Positions 1 through 15,538 of a stretch of DNA of 64,000 nt are shown in pieces. Position 1 is the stretch's first letter; each line of letters starts with the position of its first letter. Below the pieces are notes generated by a model. That model had not been told where the DNA came from. It worked only from the letters and a program-made list of their open reading frames with translations, and did no database searches. The position numbers and the translations under genes are program-made. The DNA is from Actinopolyspora halophila DSM 43834 (lineage in GTDB: Bacteria; Actinomycetota; Actinomycetes; Mycobacteriales; Pseudonocardiaceae), in contig NZ_AQUI01000002.1 of assembly GCF_000371785.1 (NCBI RefSeq), positions 590,590 through 654,589 on the forward strand. Reading direction: 5' to 3'.

Positions 1-824
1 CCGCCGTTGTCAGCGACGATCTTTTGGAAGTAGAGATGGCCTCGAATCCTGTCTGCCATCTCTGCCGACCGCGGGCGTTCCTCGGGGATGTCGAGTGCAG
101 GGATCCGCTCCGCGATGTAGTTGCCCGTCGCTCCCCGCTGTACGCCGACGAGCGGATACGGGCAAGTCTGCTGCTCCGTGTGTCCTTCCAGCTCCCAAGG
201 CTGTCGGCCTGTGCAACGGATGCCGTCCCGTTGCAGTGCTCCCTTGCCGACCAGCTCGGACAATGATCGCGAGCTCCCGCAACCGTGGCACTTCGCGATG
301 AGGGAGCCGAGTCCCTCGCCGTGTGATGCGATCTTTCGGAAACGGAGTTCCTTGTACGACCGGCAGAAGCGGACCTCTTCCCGCAATTCGGCCTCACGGC
401 CGCGGTGCACCCATCGAAACCATGGGATGTCCTGGATGTGACTGCCCTTCTCGCAGACCGCCACGAACCTCATCGGGACGAGCAGACCACCACACTCGCA
501 GTGATTGTCCCACTTTCCCCGCTTGTGCCCGGTCAGTTTCGAGAGTTTGTCGCAACGTTCGCAGAAGCGCCACGCCGGGAATCGCCAGTACGGGAGCGAC
601 GCCGTCTCCTTACCCGCCCACCCCGAGTGTGTGGGCGGTTGCCGGAGCACTCCGGCCCCAAGCCTTGCCGTGAGCCGTTCGCAACTGATCTCCGGTGCGA
701 ACTTCGGGTCCCACCACGACGTGTCGGCGGCGATGAGCGATTCGCCTCGGACATCGGTGATCGCACCGACACCGAAGGGCGTGATCGTCTCCGAGAGTCG
801 CAGGTCATGCCTGATCCTCTCCAC
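1..824 (-). CDS. drmB: DrmB-like DUF1998 protein, partial (runs off left edge)
   Basis: This is the N-terminal 274 residues of a protein cut by the window edge. It opens at GTG 824, six bases after a perfect AGGAGG (831-836 on the plus strand), and overlaps the end of drmA by 20 bases. The reading frame stays open to position 1. It begins with the pattern LSETITPFGVGAITDV, then shows FCERCDKLS, a CECGG pair, VAVCEKGSHIQDIPWF and a KCHGCG, so cysteines come in zinc-ribbon-like pairs. That N-terminus is typical of DUF1998/DrmB proteins, which accompany the DrmA helicase in DISARM phage defence. Molecular function is not established. Assignment rests on these motifs and on the adjacent DrmA. Confidence 0.85.
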   Translation of the reverse strand, partial: MERIRHDLRLSETITPFGVGAITDVRGESLIAADTSWWDPKFAPEISCERLTARLGAGVLRQPPTHSGWAGKETASLPYWRFPAWRFCERCDKLSKLTGHKRGKWDNHCECGGLLVPMRFVAVCEKGSHIQDIPWFRWVHRGREAELREEVRFCRSYKELRFRKIASHGEGLGSLIAKCHGCGSSRSLSELVGKGALQRDGIRCTGRQPWELEGHTEQQTCPYPLVGVQRGATGNYIAERIPALDIPEERPRSAEMADRIRGHLYFQKIVADNG

Positions 825-3800
825 GGAACACCTCCTGCGGTTCCTGAACTTCGACGGCGACGTTCGGCTCGACGGACCTCATCGAGTCTCCCACCAGCCA
901 ACCCTCTCCCGGCTCACCGAAACGTCTGAGCAGCGCAGCGGCGTCGGATTTCGGGCGACGCTCGTAGTGCAGCTCTGTGCCGTCTTCCCGGGCTTCGGAG
1001 GCACGACGGTCCCAGTTCCGAAGCAAGTGCCGGATTTCGTCCTCCGTATCCTGCTGCTCGAACGGCTCGGATCGTGAAATGTAGTAAAGGAATTTCGCGA
1101 TCAAAGCCTCCACGGCATCGTTGATCCGCGCGTCGTCGAGGTCGAGCCTGACGGCGTCGTCGTTGGCTGCGAGCGGCCCGAGCGACTGGCGCAGCAGTGC
1201 AACGAGGGCTCCTGCAAGGGACCTGTCTCGGGAGGCCAGCGACCAAGGAGTCACGCTCGTCGGCTCCACGCTCCGATAAAGTGCTTCGTGGTAGCTGCGG
1301 AACGTTTCGAAGTGGGAACGGTCGCGAGCCCGGCTCGATCGAAACAACGTGACCACGACGCCACGCGTGTCTCCACGGCCGACACGGCTGGTGGACTGGA
1401 TGTACTCGGCAGTGGTCTTCGGCTGTCCCACCATCAGCATCAGCGCCAGGCGCGGGACGTCGATGCCGACGGACAGCATGTTCGACGACAGTACGACGTC
1501 GACGGCTTCGTCGGAATCATCGGCGCCGACGCGTAGAGCCCGAAGGTCCTTGGGAAGCTCCTCGGCGCCTTTACGGCTGGTCAGCTCGATGACCTTATCT
1601 GCACGTACTCGGCGGAAGGGAATGCTCAGACGGTCCGATCGAGGTTCCAGGCGGCCGTTGACGTCATCGACCACCAGCGCGCTCGTACGGCCGAGCTCAC
1701 GAAGGCTGTTGTGATACATCACAAGCGTCCAGTAGGAGTCCCGTGTGGGGACTCCCGTGCCGCGCGCGGTCAGTGCCTCGGGTATCTCAAACATCGGCGT
1801 GACCGCTGAGATCACCGCCGACGGTTGGGACACCGACTGAGGCATCAGGCCGACGTAGAGTCGTCCTTCGCCGTTCTCGACGGGTCTCGAAAAGAAGGTT
1901 CGGTCGTCGTCGAGCCCGGAGGGCGGATACAGTGCGACGTTCCGGCCGTACAAGCCTTGGACCTGCTCATCGGACGCGCGGATCGTGGCGGTGGAAGCAA
2001 CGATCTTCGGTGTTGTGCCCGAGTGGCCGAGCAATACCTGGATGACAGCGTCGAACACTGCGACGGTGGTGCCGAGCGGGCCCGACAGGAGGTGCAGTTC
2101 GTCCTGAATGATCATCGACGGCTGCTTGGTAGTCGTGCCGATCCCCAAGAGACTCCCGGCCTCGGGCTTGAACTGCAGCCTGGCGAACTTGTCGACCGTC
2201 GCCAAGAGGATCGTCGGAGGATGTTCGTACAGGACCTCATCGACGACACTGAGCGGAAGTCGTTCGTGGAAGGAACAGCCCGGGTCGACGCAATGCAGGA
2301 CGACGTCGGACCCCTCGCGCCGTGCGCCGTAATCCGATCTCTTGTTGCTCTTGGTCCTGGGGACCAGCTGAGTCAGACACCACGGGCAGCTCTCCACCTG
2401 GAACTGGTTGGCCTCTTCGGGGCGGGCCGCTTTCACGAGGCGGTCAAGAGCGTTGGCGGCCTCTTTTCGCGTTCCGGGCGCGATTTCGTTACCGACCCAC
2501 AGACCGATGGAGAAGGGAATCATGCCCTTGACCTTCGGATGACTCGTACGCATCAGTTCCATGGCACACACCAGCGCTGCAGCACGCTGGAACTGTTGCG
2601 AGGTCAGAAGACGCAGCGTGTACCGCGTGATTACGGCAGTACCGCCGCCCGCGCGCCCGTGTGCGAGCCGACGCCGGAAGATCTCGATGGCCGCCAGACC
2701 GAGGTACGCTTCGGTCTTGCCGCCACCGGTCGGAAACCAGATGAGATCGACCAGGTCTCGATCGTCGTGTGCAGGGTTCACGGTCGAGGCCAGCGCGATG
2801 AGTAGGAATCCGAGTTGGAAGGGTCGCCAGCTTGGTTCTTCGATCTGTTTCTCCGGGACGCCCTCGGACCGAGCGGACTGACACATCTGCAGACGCATGG
2901 CCTCCATGGCGAGGGCGAAGGCGGTCCGTATCTGCTCCTGATCCTCTGCACTCAGGAGCTCAACGCCTTCGTGCATCCTCGTCACAGCTACGGTGGACCT
3001 CTTGGCGATCCTGGTGGCTACGTCGACGTCGTCTCCGAAGCCTTCGGCCCGCGTCATTTGCTCGTCCGCCCATTCGAAGAACGCATCGACGAAAGCATGG
3101 AGGGAGGGAACAACCTCGGATCTGTTCTCATCGATCCGAGCAAGGCGTCGCAGTTCGAGCGCCTGAGCCTCGGGCGTTCCCTCATCGAAGCCGGTTGTCT
3201 CGACCGCTGGAACGACGAATGCCGGTACAGAGTCCAAGAACACACGGACACATACACCGTCGGTCAGCTCCCAGTCGGCCGCCATACCATGACCGACAGC
3301 GTAAACCTTCCTGTTGCGGTATCGGATGCGAAGTTCCGCGGCTTCCGGATCTGCATCGAACGAGCGTGCAGTGTCGTACTCAAGGATCCGGGCTCCCTCA
3401 CCGGGTGACACCGCCAACCGGATCTGAAAGAGCATGAGTGGGATGTCGAGGCGCTCGTCACCCGTTGTTTCGGTGAGCACCCGAACGTGCACCGTCACCA
3501 ACCGGGCTCCCTTGAAGTCACGCCAGCGCGCACCGATCTCAACCGGGACCTCGCCTGCCATGATCTGTTTGGGCCCTTGCTGCTTGAGCAGTGTCAGGGG
3601 ATCAGGAGTGCAGGGAGTACGTTTCCAACGGGGCGGGCCGTCGCCTTCGATCTTGGTGTAGGTAGCGCATGAGAAGTCGACACCGACGCTGTCGCCGTCG
3701 GTGACGAACGAGATCGCCGCTGATGAAGGCCGCCAGTCTTCCGCCAGCGGGACGTTCGCGCCGTCTTCTTCGACATCGCCGTCGGCGACATCGGAGCCCG

Positions 3801-3987
3801 TGTTCTCGCTCTGCTGTCCTTTGTCATCGGGAGTACGAGAGCGGCCGTCGTCCCGTGGAAACAGCATGCCCACCGCATACTGCCGGTGCGGCGGATTGGA
3901 CGTGATCTCTTCCCGTCCACCCTCTGGTCCGACGTAGGCCTCACGCAGGTGGTTCAGTGCCTGTCGTTGCGGTTCGGTCAATTTCAC
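805..3987 (-). CDS. drmA: DrmA-like superfamily II helicase of a DISARM-related system
   Basis: A 1060-residue helicase. Walker A is FPTGGGKTEAYL near residue 421, the Walker B/DEXH motif is QDELHLL near 629, motif III is STAT near 666, and motif VI is STSRVGRG near 867. The IWFPTGGGKTEAYLG and QDELHLLSGPLGT signatures are characteristic of DrmA, the DISARM helicase that works with DrmB; DISARM restricts incoming phage DNA. A CPWC and a CVDPGC in the middle suggest a metal-binding insert. The ATG start overlaps the stop of the upstream NERD-helicase gene by 4 bases (ATGA), and the 3' end overlaps drmB by 20, so expression is coupled. The family is clear; whether the system methylates DNA cannot be told here because no methylase lies in the window. 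Confidence 0.88.
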   Translation of the reverse strand: MKLTEPQRQALNHLREAYVGPEGGREEITSNPPHRQYAVGMLFPRDDGRSRTPDDKGQQSENTGSDVADGDVEEDGANVPLAEDWRPSSAAISFVTDGDSVGVDFSCATYTKIEGDGPPRWKRTPCTPDPLTLLKQQGPKQIMAGEVPVEIGARWRDFKGARLVTVHVRVLTETTGDERLDIPLMLFQIRLAVSPGEGARILEYDTARSFDADPEAAELRIRYRNRKVYAVGHGMAADWELTDGVCVRVFLDSVPAFVVPAVETTGFDEGTPEAQALELRRLARIDENRSEVVPSLHAFVDAFFEWADEQMTRAEGFGDDVDVATRIAKRSTVAVTRMHEGVELLSAEDQEQIRTAFALAMEAMRLQMCQSARSEGVPEKQIEEPSWRPFQLGFLLIALASTVNPAHDDRDLVDLIWFPTGGGKTEAYLGLAAIEIFRRRLAHGRAGGGTAVITRYTLRLLTSQQFQRAAALVCAMELMRTSHPKVKGMIPFSIGLWVGNEIAPGTRKEAANALDRLVKAARPEEANQFQVESCPWCLTQLVPRTKSNKRSDYGARREGSDVVLHCVDPGCSFHERLPLSVVDEVLYEHPPTILLATVDKFARLQFKPEAGSLLGIGTTTKQPSMIIQDELHLLSGPLGTTVAVFDAVIQVLLGHSGTTPKIVASTATIRASDEQVQGLYGRNVALYPPSGLDDDRTFFSRPVENGEGRLYVGLMPQSVSQPSAVISAVTPMFEIPEALTARGTGVPTRDSYWTLVMYHNSLRELGRTSALVVDDVNGRLEPRSDRLSIPFRRVRADKVIELTSRKGAEELPKDLRALRVGADDSDEAVDVVLSSNMLSVGIDVPRLALMLMVGQPKTTAEYIQSTSRVGRGDTRGVVVTLFRSSRARDRSHFETFRSYHEALYRSVEPTSVTPWSLASRDRSLAGALVALLRQSLGPLAANDDAVRLDLDDARINDAVEALIAKFLYYISRSEPFEQQDTEDEIRHLLRNWDRRASEAREDGTELHYERRPKSDAAALLRRFGEPGEGWLVGDSMRSVEPNVAVEVQEPQEVFRGEDQA

Positions 3988-5501
3988 TTCTCGACCTGCT
4001 TTCGGACGAGTTCCTGGAGCCGTTTTCTGTCGTCCGTGGAGGCCAGGATGTGCAACGTCACTCGTGCGCGGGTGACTGCGACATAGAAGGCCGCCGCGCT
4101 CTGCGCGTCGTACTCCTTGGGAAGGTCACACACGACGACGTACTCCGCCTCGAGCCCTTTCGCGTAGCGTGGGCTCGTGACGACGAACTTCGCGTCCCCC
4201 AGCGCGGGCGGATCGTCCGACGTCGTACTGATGATCCATATGTCGTCTCGGCGTGCACCGTTGGCCACGAGATCGCGTGCGACTTGCTCGGCTGCGGTGA
4301 CATCGGCATCCTCCCCGACTGAGTACCAGTGGACGCGCTCCCCGTTGACGATTCCCGGATCGCCGACGTCCGCGCCCAGGTACTCCTGCACTGTGTGGAC
4401 GATTGCGCGAGTGTTCCTGACGTTCTTCCGGAGCCGGAACTGAGTCGCCTCCGTTTTGACGAGGTCGCAGACTTCCGCATCGTATCCACCGTCGACCTGC
4501 GCCTGATTGTTGGGATCGAGGAACATCCGCCATCGTCCTTCGTCCCTGCCACCACGGATCGCCCTGTCGAGTGTGTCCATGCCGTCTGCATTCATGAGGT
4601 CTTGGGCCTCGTCGATGAACACGACATCGTATTGTTTGCCATCGGCAAGCTGGCTGAATGGCAACAGGTCGATGTTTCGGCTCTCGACCAGGGATTCGAA
4701 GAAGCGAACCAGAGAGGGCGAATGGAAGGTGATGAGAACTGATTTACCATCCCCAGCCTCCTGCTTCGCCGCCTCGGCCAGGGCAAGGGATTTTCCGGTC
4801 CCGGCGCCACCGAACACCAGCATGCGCTGATTGAGCGCGAGACCGGCCAGCACCTGCGCCTGCCCGTCGGTCGCGCGGTTCTGCTCCTCGATAACGGCAC
4901 CCCGTTGTGCGTCGAGGGCGGGCATACGTGTGAACTCACCGAACAGTCGGGCCCGCAGATCCTGCGCCCGTGCGATCTTCTGACGAGGAGGGGCACTCCG
5001 TGCTTCCCTCGCGATCTCGGTGAACGCTGCAGTCAGGCCTGCGACACTCATGGTTTCCTTGGCCCACCAGTGGTTGCTCTTCCACTCGACTGCGGGAGGC
5101 GGCGAGTCGATGTCCGGCGTGACGGCGACCGCCTCGCACGCGAACCATCCAGCACCATCTTCCTGGAGGATGGTACGCAGTGCGAACATCGCATCCTGCG
5201 CCTGCTCCATGGGCGATTCACGCAGTTTGTGCCAGTCGTCGTGTCGATCGATCGAATACCAGTTTCCCTCGTATTTACGGATGCCGCCGCCCTTGACCTC
5301 GATCACGATGACTATCCTGTCCCACAGCACGACGAAGTCGGCCTCGGTCTGCTGCTTCAGCACATGGCTGCGTAGTTTGACGGAATGAAACACCACCCCG
5401 TCTTGGGGGCCCTGCACCTGCTGCAGCATTCGGGCCAGCCTGGCCTCGGCCGTACTGGTGCTCGAAACTTCGATGTCGTGAAGGTCGGGAACAAGGATCA
5501 T
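3984..5501 (-). CDS. NERD-domain nuclease fused to UvrD-like SF1 helicase
   Basis: A 505-residue protein. The N-terminus is a NERD (nuclease-related) domain, with EADF at residues 53-56 and the EVK catalytic-type motif at 68-70. The C-terminal two thirds is an SF1 helicase: Walker A GGAGTGKS near 233, Walker B IDEAQD near 296, and motif VI VAVTRAR near 476. ATG 5501 is preferred because AAAAGGA lies just upstream and because it forms an ATGA overlap with the end of the preceding gene; a longer in-frame extension to 5594 has no such support. NERD-helicases are common in defence islands and plasmids, and the fold suggests DNA cleavage or processing coupled to unwinding. It sits between the GHKL-helicase gene and drmA, so it is likely a component of the same system. 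Confidence 0.8.
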   Translation of the reverse strand: MILVPDLHDIEVSSTSTAEARLARMLQQVQGPQDGVVFHSVKLRSHVLKQQTEADFVVLWDRIVIVIEVKGGGIRKYEGNWYSIDRHDDWHKLRESPMEQAQDAMFALRTILQEDGAGWFACEAVAVTPDIDSPPPAVEWKSNHWWAKETMSVAGLTAAFTEIAREARSAPPRQKIARAQDLRARLFGEFTRMPALDAQRGAVIEEQNRATDGQAQVLAGLALNQRMLVFGGAGTGKSLALAEAAKQEAGDGKSVLITFHSPSLVRFFESLVESRNIDLLPFSQLADGKQYDVVFIDEAQDLMNADGMDTLDRAIRGGRDEGRWRMFLDPNNQAQVDGGYDAEVCDLVKTEATQFRLRKNVRNTRAIVHTVQEYLGADVGDPGIVNGERVHWYSVGEDADVTAAEQVARDLVANGARRDDIWIISTTSDDPPALGDAKFVVTSPRYAKGLEAEYVVVCDLPKEYDAQSAAAFYVAVTRARVTLHILASTDDRKRLQELVRKQVEK

Positions 5502-8500
5502 ACGTCCTTTTCCTCCCACAAGTCCTTGTACTCGCGGTACCCCAGGAAGTCGTTCACCGCACCGAAGTTGTCGGCAACGTCCACGATGAGGCACTCTTCC
5601 TTGCCGCCGTTCTTGGGACCGCGCAGACCACGCCCCGCCATCTGGATGTACGCGCTCGGGTTGAAGGTCGGCCTGGCGATGTAGAGAGCGCGCACACCGG
5701 GGGCGTCGAATCCCTGGACGAAGAGGTCGCAGTTCGCCAAGATCCGAATCTCGCCCTTCTTGAACTGCTCGATCTTGTCACGGCGTTCCTGTCGGCCTGT
5801 CTGTCCGCTCACCGCAGCCGACAAGACACCCCGATATCGTAATGTCGCCGCGAGTACCTGTGCCGAGAGCACGCTCGGGGTGAAGACGAGGATCGGCCAC
5901 TCGGAGTCTTGAGACAGAATGTGGTCGACCAAGATTTTCATGCGAGCCTCGTCACTACCGATGCGATCCAGCAGGGGGCGCTCGACATGGCGCATCGACT
6001 CGATCTGCCCTTGCTCGTCCGCGGAGAGGGTGACCTCGACGCCATCGAGCACTTCGTGCTCCACACGCGCCAGAACACCCAGCTGCTGTAACTCGTGGTA
6101 TGAGCTTCCGTCGAACGCGTCAAGCCTGTTGTTGCCGAACCGGGCGACCAGTTCCTTCGTTTGTCGTCCGTCTTCGACCTTTCCTTTGAAAGGGGTAGCG
6201 GAGAGACCGACCAGAGGTCGTTCCCAGTTGTGGCCGTCAACGCCGAGCCATCTGAGGATGCGGGTGTAGCGGCTCGATCCTCCGGCTCGATGAGCCTCGT
6301 CGATGAAGACGGCGGCAGGTTCGCTCAGCCACTCGTACTCGGGCTGGTCGAGAATGGCCTCGATTTTGGCATCGGTTGCGACAACAACGCTCACGCCGGT
6401 GTCTGGTTCGTGGACGATATTGTTCTCCCACAGTCGTCCGATCGCGAGCGGGCGCTCGTCACCGATGTGGCGCCAGACCGTGGCAAAAGTTTGCACGGCC
6501 TGTTCGCAGAGCTCGATCGACTGCGCGATCCACAGAACGGTCCCACTGAGAACTTCGTCCTTGAAAAGTTTGAGCACTGTTTCGGTCGCGACGCGCGTTT
6601 TGCCGGCGCCTGTAGGAAGCTCAACCATTCCCTTTTGCGCGGGGCCCTTGTCCGATGGCTGCGTGAGAACCGTGCGTAGGCTCTCACTGATTCGTTTCTG
6701 GTACGAATGCAGCTCGTTGAGCTTGACCGCTCCCGGAACGACGAACTCGTCCGGCTGTGGGTCGGCGCGCCGGCCCGCATACTTAGCCGCGAATCCCATC
6801 TTCCGCAGCCAGTCGATCGTCTGGACACCGCCTGTCCATTGAGTCGGTACATCGGTGTAACCCTCGGACCGGAACAGATCCGCTAGTTGCCTTATCGAAT
6901 CATTGCCGTACACGGTCAGAAAAAGATCGGCAACGGACGTCGATCCGGTGACGAGTCCTTGCGCTTCCAACGCCTGCCAGAGCCCGCGAGGCAGTTGTTC
7001 TTTGAGGGTGTCTTCTCCGAAGAAAACCTCGAGCTTTTCGGCTTCGTCCACCGCCGCGCGTGCTTCCTGACGTTGCCTTTCTCTCTGCTGGTCCAGAGCG
7101 GCCTGCTTGACGTTGTCGAGTTCGGCGTTGGACAGATGGAGTCCGAACGCCTCGTTGACGATCTTCAAAACATGATTGTCGTCGAGGTCTTTGCGAACGA
7201 TCAGTGTGAGTCCATCGAGGTGCCAGGCGAGTGACTGGTCTTCCACCCCGTCTTCGGTGGTGACGCGTTTGGCGATGTAGATCGCTCTCGAAATGGAGGC
7301 GTTCACCACAGTTTCGGAGGCCCAGGTTCGCTGAAGGCCCGGGTACAGGTCCACGATTGGGTCCGGGTCCTGTCGCCCGTCAGTGATCATCGAGAACGAA
7401 AAGCTGTCCTCGAACCGGCGGCAACCAACCTTCGAGACGAACTCGTCTACATCCTTTTCCTCGACACGCAGGTACGGATTCTGCTTCTGGCTCAGCAGCT
7501 GCTGTTGTTCGTTCGTCGTCGCCAAGTACACGGTCCCCGGACGCCGTCTTTCCACCACGCTCCCGATCCGCGCGGGGATCTGCGGGGGATGGTTATCGGG
7601 GTGGACCTTCGCACTTGCTGTCAGCACGAACTCGGCGAGCACCGAGTCCTTGACGGTACTCGAGTACTCTTCGGATCCCAAGGCGGTTTTAAAAATCTCG
7701 CCCGAGACATCGGCGAGCTCACGTGGTAGGTCCAGCGCATCCTTGAGCGACTTCGGCCCCGAATAGTACGGGAGGAGTTCCCGGTACTCGATCAATGCGG
7801 GCGAGACGATCTCTGAAGGCGCACTAAATCCTTGGTTGGACTCGACCAGCCCGGCCTCGGAAACTGCCCATCGAACCGGTGATATTATCCGTCGTGGCTG
7901 GCGATTATCGACGTCCTCGCAGGTCCAGGTGTCCCGCTTCTCGAGTTCCAGGAGCTTCTGAGTCCACTGTGCGCGGGTGGATACGGGCGCTCCGGATTCG
8001 GCCATCAGCAGCAGCGCCGAAAACGGCCCTGCTCCGAGGCTCTGGTCGAACTCGATATTCCTGGCTGGCCGCTCTCCAGGATCTACCCGCTGGTTGAGAT
8101 CAGCGACTACGAATTCGCGGTACCGGTCTGCATAGATCTCGTCCTCGAACGAGTACGATCGGACCGGTTGATGGATGACACCGGCGGCTCTGGCGATCTG
8201 GTGTTGACAACGATCATGATCGAGAAGAATGCTTTCGATTCCCTCCGAGAGACCGTCCACGTCGAGAACGGACTGCGGCAGCGCCCACCCGCCATCCCGT
8301 GTGGGAACCTTGATGTATTTTGTGGTGTTTTGCTCGACAATCCGTTGGGCGGTAGGAAGGGGGGCGTCCATGACGGCCGCCCAGAACTTTTCGTAATCCT
8401 CGGAACCGGAGTTCGGAGACAGCTTGTCGAGTCGGGCTCGGAGGATAGCGATCGGGTCCAGGTCTCTGAACCCGGCCTTTTCTCGAAGGTTTTTCTCGAT

Positions 8501-10219
8501 GCCCGGAATCGCAAGGAATTCCGGGGTCACGAAACTGGCATCTTCGGCGTCGACGTCGTCGACATGCTTGAGGAAGACGTCGTTACGGTCTGCGAGAGAT
8601 TTGAGGCCGCCGCTGGTCGGTACGACCTTAGCTTTCTGGATGTCTTCGATTTTGGGATTGATTAGCACAAAGTTCAACGCTTGTGCGGCAGATCCGTAGT
8701 CCCCGTTCGCCCACTCACGTAGCCATGACAATATACCTTTTGTACGAACCTTCGAGAGCGCTTTCTCCTCGTCACGTTGTTGAGAGCCCATCAGGTCCGG
8801 ATCAGCGTGGTAAGCATAGAGCTGTCGGAGTCGAGCCGCACGACGTGGGGTCGAGTAGCAGCGCCAGTGGGGTACCTGGTCGCTGGTGTTCGGGGATTTG
8901 ATCCATGCCTCGTGGTCACCGCTTTTCACCTCGTTCCCGAGAGAGAAGGTGAGAGGAAGCAGGTCCTCCGGGGTGCACAGCGCACCGGTACCGTCGGGAA
9001 TCAGGGCACTCCGAGAGCCCAACCGTGGAACGTGCGCACACAGAACCTCGTCCCCGAACGAGAGGATCTCGCGGCCACGTGCGGGCATGTAGTCGAAGTG
9101 TGCTGCGGGATCGTCGGCCGTTGCCACCCGAGGAAGAACGTCGAGGAACATCTGCGAAAGCGTTGCTAGAATCTCGAGATTGTAGCGGTTTCTGAGGAGC
9201 GTCGTTCGGTCGTCATTGACGCTCCAGGGCGCATTGAAGAGAGCAGAAGCAGTGGTCGCATCCTGGAGTGGGAAGTATGACCACAAATTTCCCGTCTGCA
9301 GGTCTGTGTAGCGCTCGGGCATTGCAACGGTCACCTTGACTTGTTCCCGTGACACCGCCTCGCCGACGTCACCGCGCGCCCGAGTACTGGGCGTATGCAT
9401 CCGGTTCGTTACGAACCACAGGCGGTCGTCGCCGTCGGGGCGTTCAATCCGGAACTTTCCGTCACCGAGGGCCCGTGATACGTGAGTCGTCTCGAAGGTC
9501 TGCTCCTGCGCCACGATTCGCAGTCGGATCTCCCGGACCGCATCGACGAAGAGCAGGAACTCCGACCGGAACTCCTTGATCTCCTTCTGGAGGCTCTCGA
9601 GTCTCTCGGCGTGTGGCAGACGCACGATCGTCGAGGCCCATTCGGCGAGCTCATTGAGAACGGGGTCCTTGGCGAACTCGGCGTCGACATCTGTGATCTG
9701 TGTGGCTGTCCTCAGGACGGGCAATCGCTCGGACGTGGCGCCGACCTCGTTGAGCGATGCCTTGGCCTTCGGCGAGTTGAACTCGAACGAAAGCGAGCGG
9801 CTGAACACCTGCGGTGTGTGGGTAACTGCGAGGACTGACTTGAACCCGAGGCCGAATCGACCGATCTCGTTGCCTCGCTTGCCGCTGAGATGTGCATGTG
9901 CAAGAGAGGTCAGGCCGCTTGTCGAGAAGGGGAGCCCTGCATTCGCGCAGTAGAGCGTCTCCGTGTTGAGATCGAGGATGATTTCGACGCGTCCTGCGGA
10001 CCCGTCGGTATCCGCAGTACCGGCCATCGCATCGGCGGCGTTCTGCACGAGCTCAAGGAGCGTCCTGTTGGCGTAACCACCGACACGGATCGACTCCTCA
10101 TGGTTGGCATGCTCGTCGATCAGGTTGGGATTCGCCCGGTAGACATCGATGGCTCGATCGAACAACCCCTGGAGCTCACGGATCATGGTGCCGTCCGGCA
10201 CCCACTCGCTCGTCGTCAT
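5498..10219 (-). CDS. GHKL (Hsp90/sacsin-type) ATPase fused to SF2 DEAH helicase
   Basis: A 1573-residue protein and the first gene of the island operon. The N-terminus carries a histidine-kinase/Hsp90-like ATP-binding fold: the N-box ELVQNAADAM (E56, N60, D63), CANAGLPF near 91-98, and the glycine lid GRFGLGFKSV at 120-129, which resembles sacsin-type domains. The C-terminal 400 residues form an SF2 helicase with Walker A PTGAGKT near 1200, IDEAH near 1306, LSATPF, and motif VI AGRGLRG. The roughly 1000 residues between have no domain I recognise. ATG 10219 follows GAGGAGGT at good spacing. The stop overlaps the NERD-helicase start. The role is probably nucleic-acid sensing or remodelling in defence; that is inferred from context. 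Confidence 0.78.
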   Translation of the reverse strand: MTTSEWVPDGTMIRELQGLFDRAIDVYRANPNLIDEHANHEESIRVGGYANRTLLELVQNAADAMAGTADTDGSAGRVEIILDLNTETLYCANAGLPFSTSGLTSLAHAHLSGKRGNEIGRFGLGFKSVLAVTHTPQVFSRSLSFEFNSPKAKASLNEVGATSERLPVLRTATQITDVDAEFAKDPVLNELAEWASTIVRLPHAERLESLQKEIKEFRSEFLLFVDAVREIRLRIVAQEQTFETTHVSRALGDGKFRIERPDGDDRLWFVTNRMHTPSTRARGDVGEAVSREQVKVTVAMPERYTDLQTGNLWSYFPLQDATTASALFNAPWSVNDDRTTLLRNRYNLEILATLSQMFLDVLPRVATADDPAAHFDYMPARGREILSFGDEVLCAHVPRLGSRSALIPDGTGALCTPEDLLPLTFSLGNEVKSGDHEAWIKSPNTSDQVPHWRCYSTPRRAARLRQLYAYHADPDLMGSQQRDEEKALSKVRTKGILSWLREWANGDYGSAAQALNFVLINPKIEDIQKAKVVPTSGGLKSLADRNDVFLKHVDDVDAEDASFVTPEFLAIPGIEKNLREKAGFRDLDPIAILRARLDKLSPNSGSEDYEKFWAAVMDAPLPTAQRIVEQNTTKYIKVPTRDGGWALPQSVLDVDGLSEGIESILLDHDRCQHQIARAAGVIHQPVRSYSFEDEIYADRYREFVVADLNQRVDPGERPARNIEFDQSLGAGPFSALLLMAESGAPVSTRAQWTQKLLELEKRDTWTCEDVDNRQPRRIISPVRWAVSEAGLVESNQGFSAPSEIVSPALIEYRELLPYYSGPKSLKDALDLPRELADVSGEIFKTALGSEEYSSTVKDSVLAEFVLTASAKVHPDNHPPQIPARIGSVVERRRPGTVYLATTNEQQQLLSQKQNPYLRVEEKDVDEFVSKVGCRRFEDSFSFSMITDGRQDPDPIVDLYPGLQRTWASETVVNASISRAIYIAKRVTTEDGVEDQSLAWHLDGLTLIVRKDLDDNHVLKIVNEAFGLHLSNAELDNVKQAALDQQRERQRQEARAAVDEAEKLEVFFGEDTLKEQLPRGLWQALEAQGLVTGSTSVADLFLTVYGNDSIRQLADLFRSEGYTDVPTQWTGGVQTIDWLRKMGFAAKYAGRRADPQPDEFVVPGAVKLNELHSYQKRISESLRTVLTQPSDKGPAQKGMVELPTGAGKTRVATETVLKLFKDEVLSGTVLWIAQSIELCEQAVQTFATVWRHIGDERPLAIGRLWENNIVHEPDTGVSVVVATDAKIEAILDQPEYEWLSEPAAVFIDEAHRAGGSSRYTRILRWLGVDGHNWERPLVGLSATPFKGKVEDGRQTKELVARFGNNRLDAFDGSSYHELQQLGVLARVEHEVLDGVEVTLSADEQGQIESMRHVERPLLDRIGSDEARMKILVDHILSQDSEWPILVFTPSVLSAQVLAATLRYRGVLSAAVSGQTGRQERRDKIEQFKKGEIRILANCDLFVQGFDAPGVRALYIARPTFNPSAYIQMAGRGLRGPKNGGKEECLIVDVADNFGAVNDFLGYREYKDLWEEKDV

Positions 10220-10927: not shown

Positions 10928-10975
10928 CGCCTTGTAAGCGGAAGGTCAGGGGTTCGAATCCCCTCAGCGGCTCCA
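10928..10975 (+). other. tRNA-Thr(TGT) 3' fragment, probable attachment site of the island
   Basis: The stretch begins inside the anticodon arm with the loop CTTGTAA (anticodon TGT, threonine). It continues through the variable loop, a perfect T arm (AGGGG/CCCCT around TTCGAAT) and the acceptor strand to an encoded CCA at 10973-10975. The expected acceptor 5' strand (GCCGCTG) and D arm are absent, and pairing of the anticodon stem fails upstream of 10928. A 3' tRNA fragment of this kind is what remains at the far end of an element integrated into a tRNA gene. The orientation predicts an intact tRNA-Thr(TGT) to the left of this window. Confidence 0.8.
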
Positions 10976-11019: not shown

Positions 11020-11297
11020 TTCGGTGCGCGGCGGGGATCAGTTCCGATCGCAACTCCGCCCTCAGGCCGGACGACGCGATTCCGCTCCCTCCTCGAGCCT
11101 TCGTCGAATCCCGGGCAAAGTGGATGAGACCACTCCGACGGAGTCTCCGCGAGCCCTTCCGGGGAAGAGAACATCACTGCCGTATCGAGCTGCCCCGACA
11201 CACGGCCCCTCCTGAGCGAGATCACCTACACTCGTGAACCATGCCCTGTCGCCTCGTGCTTGGTTGAGTGGTTCCGGCTCGCCACTGGGAGTCTTGT

Positions 11298-14030
11298 ATG
11301 GCGGACAAATCGCTCGGAGGGGGAACGAGCGCCGTCGCCGCCTCCGCGCACGCCGCTTGTGCGCGCTTCCGCGGAACCGACCCGCTCGTGGTCGGACGCA
11401 CGCGCAGACAGCTCGCGGCGGACATCGGATTCCCGGACGAATCGGGGCGCATCCCCCACGCCCGGTGGATGCGGGCGATGACCTTCGAACACCTGGTGCG
11501 GGAGCACAGGTTCGCCGGTGAAGTGGCCACCACCACGGTGGGCAGGCTCGGGCTGAACCGTCCCAACGGGATCGTGACGTCCGACGCGCAGGTGGACACG
11601 GGCAGGACGGCCGGTCTCCTCGCGGACGCACACGCCAGAGCCGTGGCGGACGGTTCGGTCACGCTGATCCACGGGATCGCGTTGCCGTTCGTCGGCTTCG
11701 AGGGCCAGGACGCCACAGAGGTCAAGCCCGACTTCGCCGTTATCGCTGCCAGGACCGACCGGAATGGTGAATCCTGGATGGTCGTCGGTGACGCCAAGGA
11801 CTACGAACGGGTGAGATCACGGGTCGAGGACACCAGATTGCTGAAAGGCTTTCTGCAAGTGGCCCTGGGGGCGGAATCCGCCGCATCCTGGTCACACGTG
11901 CCCACCGGTATGTCGGTCCACTCCCACGGCGTGCTGGCCGTCCCCCGCAACGCCTTCCTGCAGCCCGAGGCCCTGGTGGAATCGCTCGACGACCACCGGG
12001 CGGAGGTTCGGATGCGCGTGGCGGAGCGGCGACGTGAGGCCGAGCAGCCGCCATCGGTCGAACCGGAAGACCTCTCGAAGTACGTCGCGCACCTGCGGGC
12101 GACGTTCGACCCGGCCACGTGCACCACGTGCACCCTGTTCTCCTACTGCCGGAACGAGCTCAGGACATCGGCCGACCCGGCCGACCTGCTCGTCGAGCTG
12201 GGAATACCGAGCGACACGCGTCCCCACGTCGTCGGCCTGGTGGACGGAACGGGCGCGCTCGGCAAAGCCCCGGCATCGGTGACCGCCAACGTGACGGCGA
12301 CCCTGGAGGGGATCGGGCAGTCCACCGGCCAACGACGCATCGACCCGGCGGGGCGCGCGGGCACCGTCAACGTCGTACTCGCCAAATCGGACTCCGCGGC
12401 TCTCGGTGTTCACGGGGTCGCCACGCAGCGCGTCACCGTGGAAGGGCGCGAGCCGTGGCGGGTCACCGTCTTCGACGATCCGCAGTCCGCGCGTTGCCGT
12501 CGCGAGGTGGTGCGCCTGCTCGGACGGGAGCTGTCCGCGGCGATGGCCGAGCGGCGCGCGGCCGACGGGGACGCACCGGACCCCGTTCACCTCGTCGTCC
12601 CGGACCAGCCGACAGCCGACGTCCTCGTCTCGATCGCCGACAACCTGGCCGGCATCGAGCTCAGCAGGCTGCGCTGGGAGCGGGACGAGCGAATGGGGCG
12701 TGCGCCCTTGACGTTCGACGGAGAACCGGCCGAAATCCCGTCCCCGTTGCAGGAGCCCGCGCGGACCGCCGTCTCGTTCCTGCTGGAGGAGGACCGGGCC
12801 AGGGCGCTCACGCTCCGGTCCCCGATGGTCGATCTCCGGGAATCGCTCGCGCGGCACGTGGTGGCCGGGGGCCCCTCGGTCGCCTCCTACCGCCTGGACT
12901 ACCTGTTGGCCTGGGCCGAGTCCGTGACCAACGGTCCCGTGGAACCACGCGGGCTGGAGGACGAGATCGAATCCGCCCTCCACACCCCGGGTGCCCGGCT
13001 GACGAGCCGTGCTTCCGACGCCATCCACGAGGCCCTGACCGCATCGGCGTCCCGGCGGGACGATCTCGGGACGCGCCACCGGGAGACGAACGGGTACGCG
13101 GCGCTGGTGACCGGAGAGCTCGACTACAAGTGCGGGATCGTCGAACGCGCCCTGAACGCGTTGGAGTCCGTTCCGGACTCACGACTGCGCGAGGTGCACC
13201 GGGAGATCGAGAGCGATGCCCAGGCGGTCTGGCGGCGACGGTTGTCGTTGCGCGCTTCCGACCTGGTGCGGTTCGGCCGAACGCACCGCTACTGGCGCAA
13301 CGCGCTCGTGTCCGTCATCGAAAGCGACGACAAGTGCCGGAACCAACTCCTGGCGCTGACGAATCCGCAGGCCGCCGACGACCTCGCCGTCGACGCAGGC
13401 ACGAGAGAGGTCGCCGTCGCGACCGTGGTGGCGACCCGGCCACTGGTGCTGGACGTCGGTTCCCGCCGGATCGGCGCGGGGACCAGGATCGTGCTGCTGC
13501 ACGTCAACGGCGACATGTGCGTCGAGCAGCCGAACGTCGGCCTCGCGATCCAGAAGAGCAGTTTCAAGTTCTCGGGGATGTCGATCGGGCCGTTGAGCGG
13601 TATCGGCGACGAAACGCCTCGTCGCTTCGAGTGGGAACCGGACAACGTTGCCGAGCTTTCGGTCGGGGACCGGCTGGTCGTCGCCGATTTCGCGTGGTTC
13701 TCGACGAACAAGGGCAACGCGTTCCTCAACGTCGCCAGACCGCGGGTCGACGAGATCTCGGCGCCGAGACCGACGTGCGAGCCGGGCTCCTATGCCGAGG
13801 ACCCCGAGAACCACGAGCACTGCTGCCGTCCGCACGAGGAAGCCGAGGCCGAGCGGTCCGACCGGATCGCCGAGCGCCGCGCTCGCGGCGAACTCAACCC
13901 GGAGGTGTGGCCGCCGGTCGTGGACTCCGACGCGTTCGAGGTGGCTCCGGCGGACGCCCCCCTCGCCGACGTGACGGCCGATCCGGTGACGAGTCCGCCC
14001 GACGACATGACGATGGACGACCTGGAGTGA
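11298..14030 (+). CDS. Large PD-(D/E)XK nuclease with probable 4Fe-4S site
   Basis: A 910-residue protein. A PD-(D/E)XK nuclease core is visible as KPDFAVIAA (D145) followed by VVGDAKDY (D165, K167). Cysteines at 21, 275, 278 and 284 (CTTCTLFSYC) flank the core in the one-before, three-after pattern of AddB/Cas4-type iron-sulfur nucleases. The middle is unrecognised. The C-terminus has a small Cys/His cluster (HEHCCRPH) and an acidic tail. ATG 11298 has GGGAG six bases upstream; GTG 11268 is a less likely earlier start. The stop codon overlaps the start of the next gene by one base, so the nuclease and the SF1 helicase that follows are probably one functional unit for DNA processing or defence. 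Exact role unknown. Confidence 0.7.
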   Translation: MADKSLGGGTSAVAASAHAACARFRGTDPLVVGRTRRQLAADIGFPDESGRIPHARWMRAMTFEHLVREHRFAGEVATTTVGRLGLNRPNGIVTSDAQVDTGRTAGLLADAHARAVADGSVTLIHGIALPFVGFEGQDATEVKPDFAVIAARTDRNGESWMVVGDAKDYERVRSRVEDTRLLKGFLQVALGAESAASWSHVPTGMSVHSHGVLAVPRNAFLQPEALVESLDDHRAEVRMRVAERRREAEQPPSVEPEDLSKYVAHLRATFDPATCTTCTLFSYCRNELRTSADPADLLVELGIPSDTRPHVVGLVDGTGALGKAPASVTANVTATLEGIGQSTGQRRIDPAGRAGTVNVVLAKSDSAALGVHGVATQRVTVEGREPWRVTVFDDPQSARCRREVVRLLGRELSAAMAERRAADGDAPDPVHLVVPDQPTADVLVSIADNLAGIELSRLRWERDERMGRAPLTFDGEPAEIPSPLQEPARTAVSFLLEEDRARALTLRSPMVDLRESLARHVVAGGPSVASYRLDYLLAWAESVTNGPVEPRGLEDEIESALHTPGARLTSRASDAIHEALTASASRRDDLGTRHRETNGYAALVTGELDYKCGIVERALNALESVPDSRLREVHREIESDAQAVWRRRLSLRASDLVRFGRTHRYWRNALVSVIESDDKCRNQLLALTNPQAADDLAVDAGTREVAVATVVATRPLVLDVGSRRIGAGTRIVLLHVNGDMCVEQPNVGLAIQKSSFKFSGMSIGPLSGIGDETPRRFEWEPDNVAELSVGDRLVVADFAWFSTNKGNAFLNVARPRVDEISAPRPTCEPGSYAEDPENHEHCCRPHEEAEAERSDRIAERRARGELNPEVWPPVVDSDAFEVAPADAPLADVTADPVTSPPDDMTMDDLE

Positions 14031-15538
14031 TGGTGACGGTCGAGTTCTCCCAACCGGAGCCGCGGGACGTCGAGCGCGTCCACCACGACAGTGCGGCGGC
14101 GGGCAACACCGCGGTGGCCGACGAGGCGGTCGGGGTGCTGCGCGGCGCGCTGTCCGGCATCGCGCCGCTGGACCGGCTCCTGCTCAGGGCCGCGGCCGGG
14201 GCGGGGAAGTCCCACATCCTGAAGAAGCTGGTGGCCAATGCCGTCGAGCACCCCGAGTGCTCACGAGTGGCGATCATCGCCTTCACGAACAAGCAGATCC
14301 ATCCGCTCGCGGCTTCGCTGGGGCGGTTGCTCGGTCAGGAACGAGTTTGTCTGTCCGTCGGCAAGGCCCGGCACGAGGAGGTACCCGAGGAGGCGAGGTC
14401 GAACTCGACCGTGGTCACCACCGCCTCGGCCGTTCCGCCCGAGTGCGAGGTGATCGTCTCGACCTCCCACAAGCTCGGCGCCATCGGCGAACTCGACCGG
14501 TTGGCCGAACATCTCGGTGTCGGTCACAACGGTGAGTCCACGTTCGACGCGCTGTTCGTCGACGAGGCGTGGCAGCTCCCGCACCACCTGTTCGACAGGG
14601 TCGCCAAGGCGGCGCCGATCACGGTCGGAGTCGGTGACGTCGGACAGCTTCCCCCGCTGGAGGTGGGCGCGAACCCGTGGCGGGGCGATCCGGGCTTCAA
14701 TCCGTACCGCGCGTGGCCGACCGATTTCGACGGCGACGAACGGACCTGGTCCGTCGAGCTGCCCGCGGTCTGGCGGCCCGCTGCCGGTCACCTCGACCTG
14801 TGGCGGGCCTTCTACCCCGAGTGGCGCGAACTCCACTGCGTGGCGGCGCCGGGGGACAGGGCACTGGTCGCCGCGGGGCTCTCCGGGGACACCGCCGCGA
14901 TCTGGAACCAGGTCGGTACCGGCGTGCCGACGCTGCTCGAGGTCGAGGGATTGCCGGAGCCCGAGAGCGCGGACGTCGACCTGCCGCTGATGGGCACGGT
15001 CGAGTCCCTGCTCGACGAGCTGCTGTCCTCGGGATTCGCCCTCGAGCACGCGGAGTACGACGACAAGGGATCCCCGACGGGCGGGACGAGCACTGCACGC
15101 CCGGGGGACGACTCCGGCGACCCGCTGATAGTGGTCCTGGCGACGCGCAACCAGGCCGTGGACGACGCGGCCGATGTCGCCGAGCGGCTACGAGCGAAGT
15201 ACTCGCTGGCCGAGACCGAGGTCGTGGCTTCGACGGTCGATTCCTGGCAGGGCCAGACGAACCGCATCACGGTCGCGATTCACCCGTTGAGCGGTGCCAC
15301 GCAACTCGACGAGTTCAACTCGGCTTTCGGCAGGCTGGCCGTGACCTGCACGCGTGCCACCCACGGGCTGCTGATGGTCACCCGGCCCGGGATCGATCGG
15401 CTTCTCGGCGAGGCTCCCGCCCGGCCGGGCACCCCGTTCGGGGAGCCGGGCAATCGGCAGTTGCCACGGCAGACCCATCAGCGCATCCTCGACACGTTCG
15501 CCAGGGGCAAGCTCGCGGTCGAGGGTGAACCCCAGTAG
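14030..15538 (+). CDS. Superfamily 1 DNA helicase, partner of the nuclease upstream
   Basis: A 502-residue protein beginning at ATG 14030 within the TGATG junction. Walker A is AAGAGKS at residues 55-61, Walker B is FVDEAW near 180, a QLPPLEVG-type motif III follows, and the C-terminal motifs are DSWQGQ near 405 and LAVTCTRATHG near 438-448. The layout is that of UvrD/Dna2/AAA_11-AAA_12-type SF1 helicases. Coupled to a PD-(D/E)XK iron-sulfur nuclease, the pair resembles the logic of AddAB or Dna2 with nuclease and helicase on separate chains. The frame is open far upstream (from 12119), but that part is only an antiphase shadow of the nuclease gene. Confidence 0.75.
   Translation: MVTVEFSQPEPRDVERVHHDSAAAGNTAVADEAVGVLRGALSGIAPLDRLLLRAAAGAGKSHILKKLVANAVEHPECSRVAIIAFTNKQIHPLAASLGRLLGQERVCLSVGKARHEEVPEEARSNSTVVTTASAVPPECEVIVSTSHKLGAIGELDRLAEHLGVGHNGESTFDALFVDEAWQLPHHLFDRVAKAAPITVGVGDVGQLPPLEVGANPWRGDPGFNPYRAWPTDFDGDERTWSVELPAVWRPAAGHLDLWRAFYPEWRELHCVAAPGDRALVAAGLSGDTAAIWNQVGTGVPTLLEVEGLPEPESADVDLPLMGTVESLLDELLSSGFALEHAEYDDKGSPTGGTSTARPGDDSGDPLIVVLATRNQAVDDAADVAERLRAKYSLAETEVVASTVDSWQGQTNRITVAIHPLSGATQLDEFNSAFGRLAVTCTRATHGLLMVTRPGIDRLLGEAPARPGTPFGEPGNRQLPRQTHQRILDTFARGKLAVEGEPQ

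Follow-up and report, generated by a model that had tools for sequence, protein, structure and literature searches.

What kind of system is encoded when DrmA and DrmB, the core pair of the defence island system associated with restriction–modification (DISARM), are preceded by genes that belong to neither described class? The question is raised by four genes at the left end of a 64,000-nucleotide stretch of Actinopolyspora halophila DSM 43834 (contig NZ_AQUI01000002.1; G000:C2:590590-654589 in our numbering of genomes, G, and contigs, C; genome size 5.35 Mb), hereafter called the window. PADLOC defines DISARM by DrmC, DrmD and DrmMI or by DrmC, DrmE and DrmMII, according to the Figure 1 legend of PMC9252829. 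Here, the genes upstream of drmA encode a fusion of a GHKL ATPase with a superfamily 2 (SF2) helicase, and a NERD nuclease joined to a superfamily 1 (SF1) helicase. The preliminary description of the window proposed either a DISARM subtype in its own right or a new system that contains DrmAB, a view that our analysis supports: both upstream genes recur beside drmAB in related genomes, and neither matches a known class component. We consider it likely that the operon represents a distinct DISARM-like defence subtype, in which a DrmAB core would work with a GHKL-SF2 protein in the slot of DrmE and a NERD-SF1 protein instead of DrmC, while a separate, exchangeable C5-cytosine methylase would mark self.

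The four open reading frames lie on the minus strand and form a single operon. Gene A, the first (5498..10219, 1573 residues, with AGGAGG upstream of its ATG at 10219), encodes a GHKL ATPase of the sacsin/TmtA type (approximately residues 15-430), a middle part (~430-1160) and a RadD/PbeA-like SF2 helicase (~1169-1551). Its GHKL part matches the PADLOC TmtA profile over residues 15-368 (E = 7.2e-56) and the sacsin P-loop domain at 69 bits (cut-off 50), and its helicase part matches ResIII at 63 bits (cut-off 22.5), RadD (8.1e-23) and PbeA (7.8e-16), with a weak match of the protein to BrxH (17.5 bits). Gene B (3984..5501, 505 residues) joins, as assigned by profile matches, a NERD nuclease of the PD-(D/E)xK clan to a UvrD/SF1 helicase (NERD, 38.9 bits, cut-off 22.1; UvrD_C_2, 32.8 bits, cut-off 27.4); its frame is open upstream to a GTG at 5594, and comparison with its homologues, most of which start at 5501, makes the ATG at 5501 the most likely start. 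Gene C (805..3987, 1060 residues) encodes DrmA, a YprA-family SF2 helicase recognized by PADLOC (3.2e-202), by PDB entry 7s9v_A (8e-148) and by NCBIfam DrmAS at 815 bits, which is under the equivalog cut-off of 950. Gene D encodes the 605 residues of DrmB, of which the N-terminal 274 codons occupy 1..824 of the window and the remainder extends to position -993 (whole gene L002:14007-15824, where L designates our locus stretches); it matches DrmB in PADLOC (5.6e-71), DrmB_fam of NCBIfam (416 bits, cut-off 240), 7s9v_B (5.7e-64) and MZB/DUF1998 (33 bits, cut-off 24.2).

Consecutive genes overlap by 4 bases (A/B, with B starting at ATG 5501), 4 bases (B/C) and 20 bases (C/D), so that the coupled arrangement given in the preliminary description is reproduced by the frames; the four identities that it had assigned are likewise confirmed by PADLOC, Pfam, NCBIfam and PDB matches. 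The same operon is carried by G007, of the same genus, whose gene A is 75% identical. Together, the products provide a nuclease, a GHKL ATPase and three motors. GHKL residues E56, N60, D63, N93, G95, G120, G123 and G125, as well as SF2 residues K1207, T1208, D1307, E1308, H1310, T1342, R1530 and R1533, are identical in all 73 aligned A proteins. The same is true, in 66 of 66 B proteins, for NERD residues E84, D86, E99 and K101 (numbering counted from GTG 5594) and for five SF1 residues, and the Walker, DExH and motif VI stretches of DrmA are conserved by alignment.

Conservation of gene order was examined in 67 distinct loci, the best of 509 relatives found when an alignment of five A proteins was run against genomes sampled at one per species. 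DrmA and DrmB follow gene A on the same strand in 67/67 loci, which answers the survey of synteny that the preliminary description had suggested. A NERD-SF1 gene stands between A and DrmA in 57 of them (L034-L090), with maximal-frame gaps of zero or less at the three junctions in 56, 56 and 55 loci, respectively. Another SF1 gene occupies the NERD slot in L092-L100; it is of the UvrD/GajB type in L094 and L097, the two that were profile-scanned, the others being judged by size and position, without an assignment for L093. L097 carries an additional NERD-SF1 gene after DrmB. Pairwise identities of A and DrmA are tightly correlated (r = 0.98, 40 rows), and the operon core thus co-evolves at the sequence level. 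The locus L091 (2222-9714) has GHKL-SF2, DrmA and DrmB with an empty NERD slot, accompanied on the opposite strand by DrmD- and DrmMI-like genes, possibly a hybrid; its record is titled Planococcus, and the genome appears to group with the phylum of the window, as sampling the phylum of L091 gave the same places again.

The components that define the known classes were searched for directly. No DrmC was found on the island that carries the operon (see below) or in the stretches of the 67 loci using phmmer with two DrmC queries, and direct queries for DrmD and DrmMI were negative on the island and in 66 of 67 loci, the exception being L091. None of the proteins A, B, C and D matches DrmE_fam, and three DrmE or DrmE-like queries returned nothing on the island or in the 67 loci. 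Under the same direct queries, all ten class 1 control loci were positive for at least one component and nine for DrmC, in a set that includes the query sources L141, L145 and L150, two of which provided the DrmC queries; five of the control loci were also scanned with PADLOC, which named DrmC, DrmD or DrmMI in each. PADLOC is weak for DrmE, having missed the NCBIfam-positive DrmE of L152, and the DrmE negative is carried by NCBIfam and the direct queries. The possibility that A and B are diverged forms of DrmD, DrmE or DrmC was considered and set aside, since neither gives such a match in PADLOC, Pfam, NCBIfam or under direct queries; a match to DrmMI was likewise lacking.

Loci that do carry DrmE place these genes in context. 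L152 encodes DrmE (NCBIfam DrmE_fam, 263 bits, cut-off 80) followed by NERD-SF1, DrmA and DrmB. The corresponding protein of L157 matches the C-terminal part of the L152 DrmE (blastp 3e-7) and those of L027-L029 match L157 (blastp 1e-8 to 1e-11), all without passing a family cut-off (DrmE_C reaches 17 bits in L028, for a cut-off of 27). The DrmE and DrmE-like loci share the order NERD-SF1, DrmA, DrmB, and gene A therefore stands in the slot of DrmE. An initial idea that NERD-SF1 is private to the GHKL-SF2 subtype was abandoned, as it also occurs in these operons and, without GHKL-SF2, in L155 and on a Deinococcus plasmid. Thus, the gene set is non-canonical, as first described, with respect to the GHKL-SF2 fusion; for NERD-SF1 that description is corrected by its presence between DrmE or DrmE-like proteins and DrmA.

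The operon lies on a 15.4-kb island (G000:C2:586067-601563, window -4522 to 10974) bounded on the left by a tRNA-Thr(TGT) gene (window -4522 to -4448) and on the right by a 47-bp direct repeat (10928..10974, plus strand) that copies the 3' part of this tRNA gene with one mismatch. The empty site is seen in G002 (L167), of the same genus, where the flanks are ~56 bases apart around an intact tRNA-Thr, against 15.66 kb between the aligned flanks here. Beyond the left edge of the window, for which the rest of drmB and possibly drmC or a methylase had been anticipated, we found the remainder of drmB and a C5-cytosine methylase, which is convergent to drmB and outside the operon (L002:12208-13506, window -2792 to -1494; PF00145, 199 bits, cut-off 22), and no drmC. 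A Vsr endonuclease gene (L002:11850-12302, window -3150 to -2698; 61.6 bits, cut-off 27) lies on the strand opposite the methylase. Apart from these genes, the operon and a shortened 84-codon frame, the island contains small frames without family match. Among the local evidence, nothing suggests more strongly that methylase and operon belong together than their common island.

Searches of Pfam and PHROGs gave no match for the 84-codon frame. Its 617-residue homologue, at the same tRNA in G001, contains HxLRH and LGH stretches, which we take to be tyrosine recombinase motifs, and the frame is accordingly described as a shortened, putatively tyrosine-recombinase-like one. G001 has no DrmA match anywhere in its genome. 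Insertion at a tRNA gene was not supported as a general trait of the system: among the 60 of 67 relatives that were scanned, 7 had a tRNA or tmRNA call of any kind in their stretch, the type being unidentified in one case. Two genes encoding 920 and 503 residues (window 11268-15538, plus strand) were rejected as parts of the system: both are located beyond the right repeat, and G002 (86-88%) and G006 (78%) retain them at the same position. The former protein has no family match and the other frame is a UvrD-like/AAA_19 helicase; they are perhaps a core nuclease-helicase pair.

The association with a methylase extends to other genomes. A profile search of all frames in each locus stretch located a C5 methylase in 52 of the 67 loci. 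In 41 it lies at most 2 kb from the operon, and both its side and its strand vary; by type, 43 of the 57 NERD-SF1 loci and all nine of L092-L100 are positive. The same profile finds one in 1/10 class 1 DISARM controls (Fisher p ~0.00006, for stretches of unequal size). Vsr is present in 39/67 loci. All 19 genomes considered (18 searched plus this one) hold C5 methylases, with 68 matches when fragments are counted apart; such enzymes are common, so their presence alone says little and it is their location that informs. The chance of finding one in a random stretch of this size is below 1/100, a figure that clustering in defence islands raises. At least 10 of the 67 loci (for example L089:1436-2518) also have a cluster of genes close to the operon, of which the one member checked encodes a NaeI restriction endonuclease; this and the other cluster counts are lower bounds, being derived from a non-overlapping frame set that drops genes.

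The sequence of the methylase is not coupled to that of the operon. Among 39 of the 41 loci with a methylase within 2 kb, plus the window (40 rows), identities of A and methylase are uncorrelated (r = 0.07, with 238 of 1000 shuffles as high), and in 71 of 201 pairs in which the A proteins are more than 60% identical, the methylases are less than 40% identical. The reading that we favour for these data is that of a restriction core that stays constant while its self mark can be exchanged, which would fit the report that unmethylated DNA stimulates the ATPase activity of Serratia DrmAB, whereas DNA carrying 5-methylcytosine lowers it (excerpts of PMC9142583). It is tempting to go further and to view the four genes as a portable, methylase-agnostic restriction engine that would sense the presence of 5-methylcytosine, not its motif, and could thus be inherited next to any C5 methylase and make use of it, including that of a type II restriction–modification system such as the NaeI-like one. 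The argument is that the core co-evolves while the neighbouring methylase seems to have been swapped; we put this forward tentatively, as possible more than probable.

Gene A is sporadic in its distribution. At E 1e-20, A finds a match in 32 of 396 sampled genomes of the phylum, in most cases restricted to one half of the protein; four genomes, this one included, have a full-length A. DrmAB follows in three of these four, as the synteny proposal would have it, and the fourth A sits 2.5 kb from a contig end. Relatives of the helicase half without the GHKL part occur in four more sampled genomes at E 1e-40 or better, and weaker ones also exist; that in G204 adjoins a divergent DrmAB, none being seen in the stretches of the other three. 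DrmA of the DrmAS family was detected in 27/296 sampled genomes at E 1e-60, indicating that the GHKL-SF2 subtype is a minority of DrmAB systems. No match covering 80% of A was found in 72,556 plasmid records (E 1e-30) or in 50,697 phage records (E 1e-20). One near full-length relative with 33% identity (L172, IMGVR_UViG_3300003747_000017) is located on a 36.7-kb contig filed as viral, which ends just after it. Second full-length copies of A were seen in the genomes of L048 (G064:C26:254416-259092) and L062 (G070:C82:121850-126463), each with a C5 methylase elsewhere on its contig; in G070 the distance to A is 110 bases.

The DrmAB pair aligns over most of its length with that of the Serratia DISARM system. 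The N-terminus of DrmA is shorter than the Serratia one by ~150 residues, the alignment opening at residue 82, which corresponds to Serratia residue 230. Directly ahead of this point lies an acidic stretch (~45-85) with a median net negative charge of 0.275 per residue, compared to 0.024 for the whole protein, and above 0.1 in 68 of 68 sequences. According to excerpts of PMC9142583, the Serratia trigger loop (residues 176-232) occludes the DNA site of DrmAB, and the acidic stretch is positioned where this loop ends. By analogy, the segment could be a gate similar to the trigger loop.

Taken together, the shared island, the methylase and Vsr association, the conserved order, the invariant residues, the sporadic spread and the likeness of DrmAB to the Serratia pair support a DISARM-like defence subtype, whose defence role, working steps and methylase self mark we infer from sequence. 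The C5 methylase would mark the host genome, and Vsr would repair the by-products of deamination. DrmAB might then engage incoming unmarked DNA at free 5' ends or at single strands, gated by the acidic segment of DrmA. With ATP, gene product A would close its GHKL module, as a clamp or a protein switch, and travel along DNA by means of its SF2 motor, licensing the complex, after which NERD-SF1 would unwind and cut the DNA.

Several observations weigh against this interpretation. The 67 loci were picked by top score and are not a random draw, and 15 of them have no C5 methylase in their stretch. Of these 15, L038, L049, L050, L060, L062, L075 and L082 still have a C5 methylase on the contig of the operon, at a distance of 4 to 7.5 kb, and in L091 one is 17 kb away; the operon contigs of L036, L047, L048, L059, L070, L076 and L084 have none, and none was seen in the stretches L026, L030 and L132. 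The uncoupled methylase sequences fit exchange but also mere co-residence in defence islands. The middle of gene A, ~730 residues, yields no fold by profile search, its sole match being a synthetic PPR protein (E = 0.0008). Finally, in L071 two frames share the coding of DrmA, and A contains a TAG.

The alternative that survives best is that of a class 2 DISARM with divergent parts, in which the C5 methylase would be DrmMII, A would replace DrmE, B would replace DrmC, and the system would work as ordinary DISARM. It draws on the gene order of L152, L157 and, with weaker matches, L027-L029, four of these five loci having a C5 methylase in their stretch, as well as on a tree of DrmA. This tree was built by a quick method from 68 of 101 rows, with A+NERD rows thinned and L071 dropped for its split frame. 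It places a clade of A+NERD systems (with L153-L156 and L091) as sister to one of DrmE+NERD systems (with L158) with a Shimodaira–Hasegawa-like approximate likelihood ratio support of 97, under a long-branch warning that includes L152 and L158. The A+UvrD clade (with L151) stands apart, the joins of the three main clades being left open. Judging from this tree, the same GHKL-SF2 gene seems to occur with two DrmA lineages, through either shuffling or old ancestry, and its presence in the second, with a UvrD-type partner, argues against an ordinary class 2 system, as do the negative searches for DrmC and DrmE and the score of the island methylase, which is 316 bits as DruM2 versus 161 bits as DrmMII. 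We therefore regard a divergent class 2 system as unlikely.

The 'class1' labels of the tree were set by gene size and partly checked; thus L031, labelled class1, is a DrmA-DrmB-methylase-kinase locus, and L149, labelled other, has DrmC. In L031 (G000:C2:3028000-3047999), a second DrmA-DrmB pair of the window's own genome precedes a type I-like/MAD2-like methylase and a Ser/Thr kinase, a layout that is non-canonical for DISARM.

Slightly less probable still is a modification-linked restriction–modification system of the MORC/paraMORC type that would have recruited DrmAB as an extra motor, with the GHKL-helicase-nuclease side as the restriction machine. The gene contents are indeed alike (see below), but a full-length A was never seen without DrmAB in the loci examined whose contig was long enough. 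A DNA-repair or housekeeping operon akin to MrfAB, repair proteins that PMC12458937, in the part consulted, lists among YprA-family helicases, is very improbable, for DrmA and DrmB match the DISARM branch strongly, and the genes are sporadic, reside here on an integrated island, are associated with a methylase and Vsr, and have a NaeI-containing cluster nearby in at least 10 of 67 loci.

A distinct DISARM-like subtype, which remains the reading that we prefer, would have several consequences. Tools built on the PADLOC DISARM rules should not call this operon as a complete system, since these rules require DrmC with DrmD and DrmMI or with DrmE and DrmMII. The operon shows DrmAB to be a core with interchangeable partners, namely DrmD/DrmMI, DrmE, the GHKL-SF2 fusion, and SF1 proteins of the NERD or UvrD type, which offers a natural comparison set for the roles of DrmD and DrmE. 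An uncoupled and apparently exchangeable methylase also makes it testable whether methylation, DNA ends or both are the basis on which DISARM separates self from non-self. The physical fusion of a GHKL ATPase to an SF2 motor could be useful for the mechanism of MORC-like ATPases, in restriction–modification systems as well as in eukaryotic chromatin.

Comparison with known systems brings out what is shared and what is particular. The window resembles class 1 DISARM of Serratia (7S9V/7S9W) in having separate, overlapping DrmA and DrmB genes that align over most of their length, and in the acidic segment at the position of the Serratia trigger loop, ahead of the aligned core. It differs in that no DrmC, DrmD or DrmMI was found, in its shorter DrmA, in the additional GHKL-SF2 and NERD-SF1 proteins, and in a methylase that lies outside the operon. 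Shared with DISARM of class 2 or DrmE type are the C5 methylase and, in L027, L028, L029, L152 and L157, NERD-SF1 ahead of DrmA-DrmB; here, however, the GHKL-SF2 fusion replaces DrmE and there is no DrmC, and among those loci only L152 passes the NCBIfam DrmE cut-off.

Deinococcus gobiensis plasmid P4 (L163) and L155 have contiguous NERD-SF1, DrmA and DrmB genes beside a C5 methylase and Vsr, but lack GHKL-SF2 and carry a second UvrD-like SF1 gene and an unassigned protein (569-576 residues) after DrmB. The Deinococcus locus also encodes a DUF2357 protein near the methylase, which recalls the DISARM-like system linked to McrBC in the consulted part of PMC11090510. In L156, a sigma-70-like protein (7255-8517) stands directly before DrmA-DrmB and matches MzaA at 2.9e-34 (119 bits, cut-off 800).

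TALON and ARMADA (Bell et al. 2025 preprint, PMC12458937) have a YprA helicase in common with our operon, and TALON also a NERD nuclease; in contrast to them, DrmB is separate from DrmA here. TPR, CSD and TBP domains, which belong to TALON genes, were not detected in the four operon proteins, nor in the neighbouring frames that were scanned. The search for genes resembling BrxHII or PglX was negative on the island, where queries with DrmD and DrmMI, homologues of BrxHII and PglX according to the same preprint, also gave nothing. The paper counts many uncharacterized DISARM-like classes, of which the GHKL-SF2/NERD-SF1 set may be one; its main text nowhere uses the word GHKL. Judging the open-licence literature by titles and the beginnings of abstracts, we recognised no paper that describes this gene set.

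Tiamat, presumably the system to which PADLOC's TmtA belongs, shares the GHKL domain of A, for which TmtA is the best PADLOC match; yet only positions 12-357 of the 1538 of the TmtA profile align, and the rest of A is unmatched and ends in a helicase. By gene content, the MORC/paraMORC restriction–modification systems (Iyer 2008) are also similar, bringing together a GHKL ATPase, an SF2 helicase, a cytosine methylase, Vsr and a PD-(D/E)xK nuclease. Here, by contrast, the GHKL ATPase and the helicase are fused in one chain, and a DrmAB core is added.

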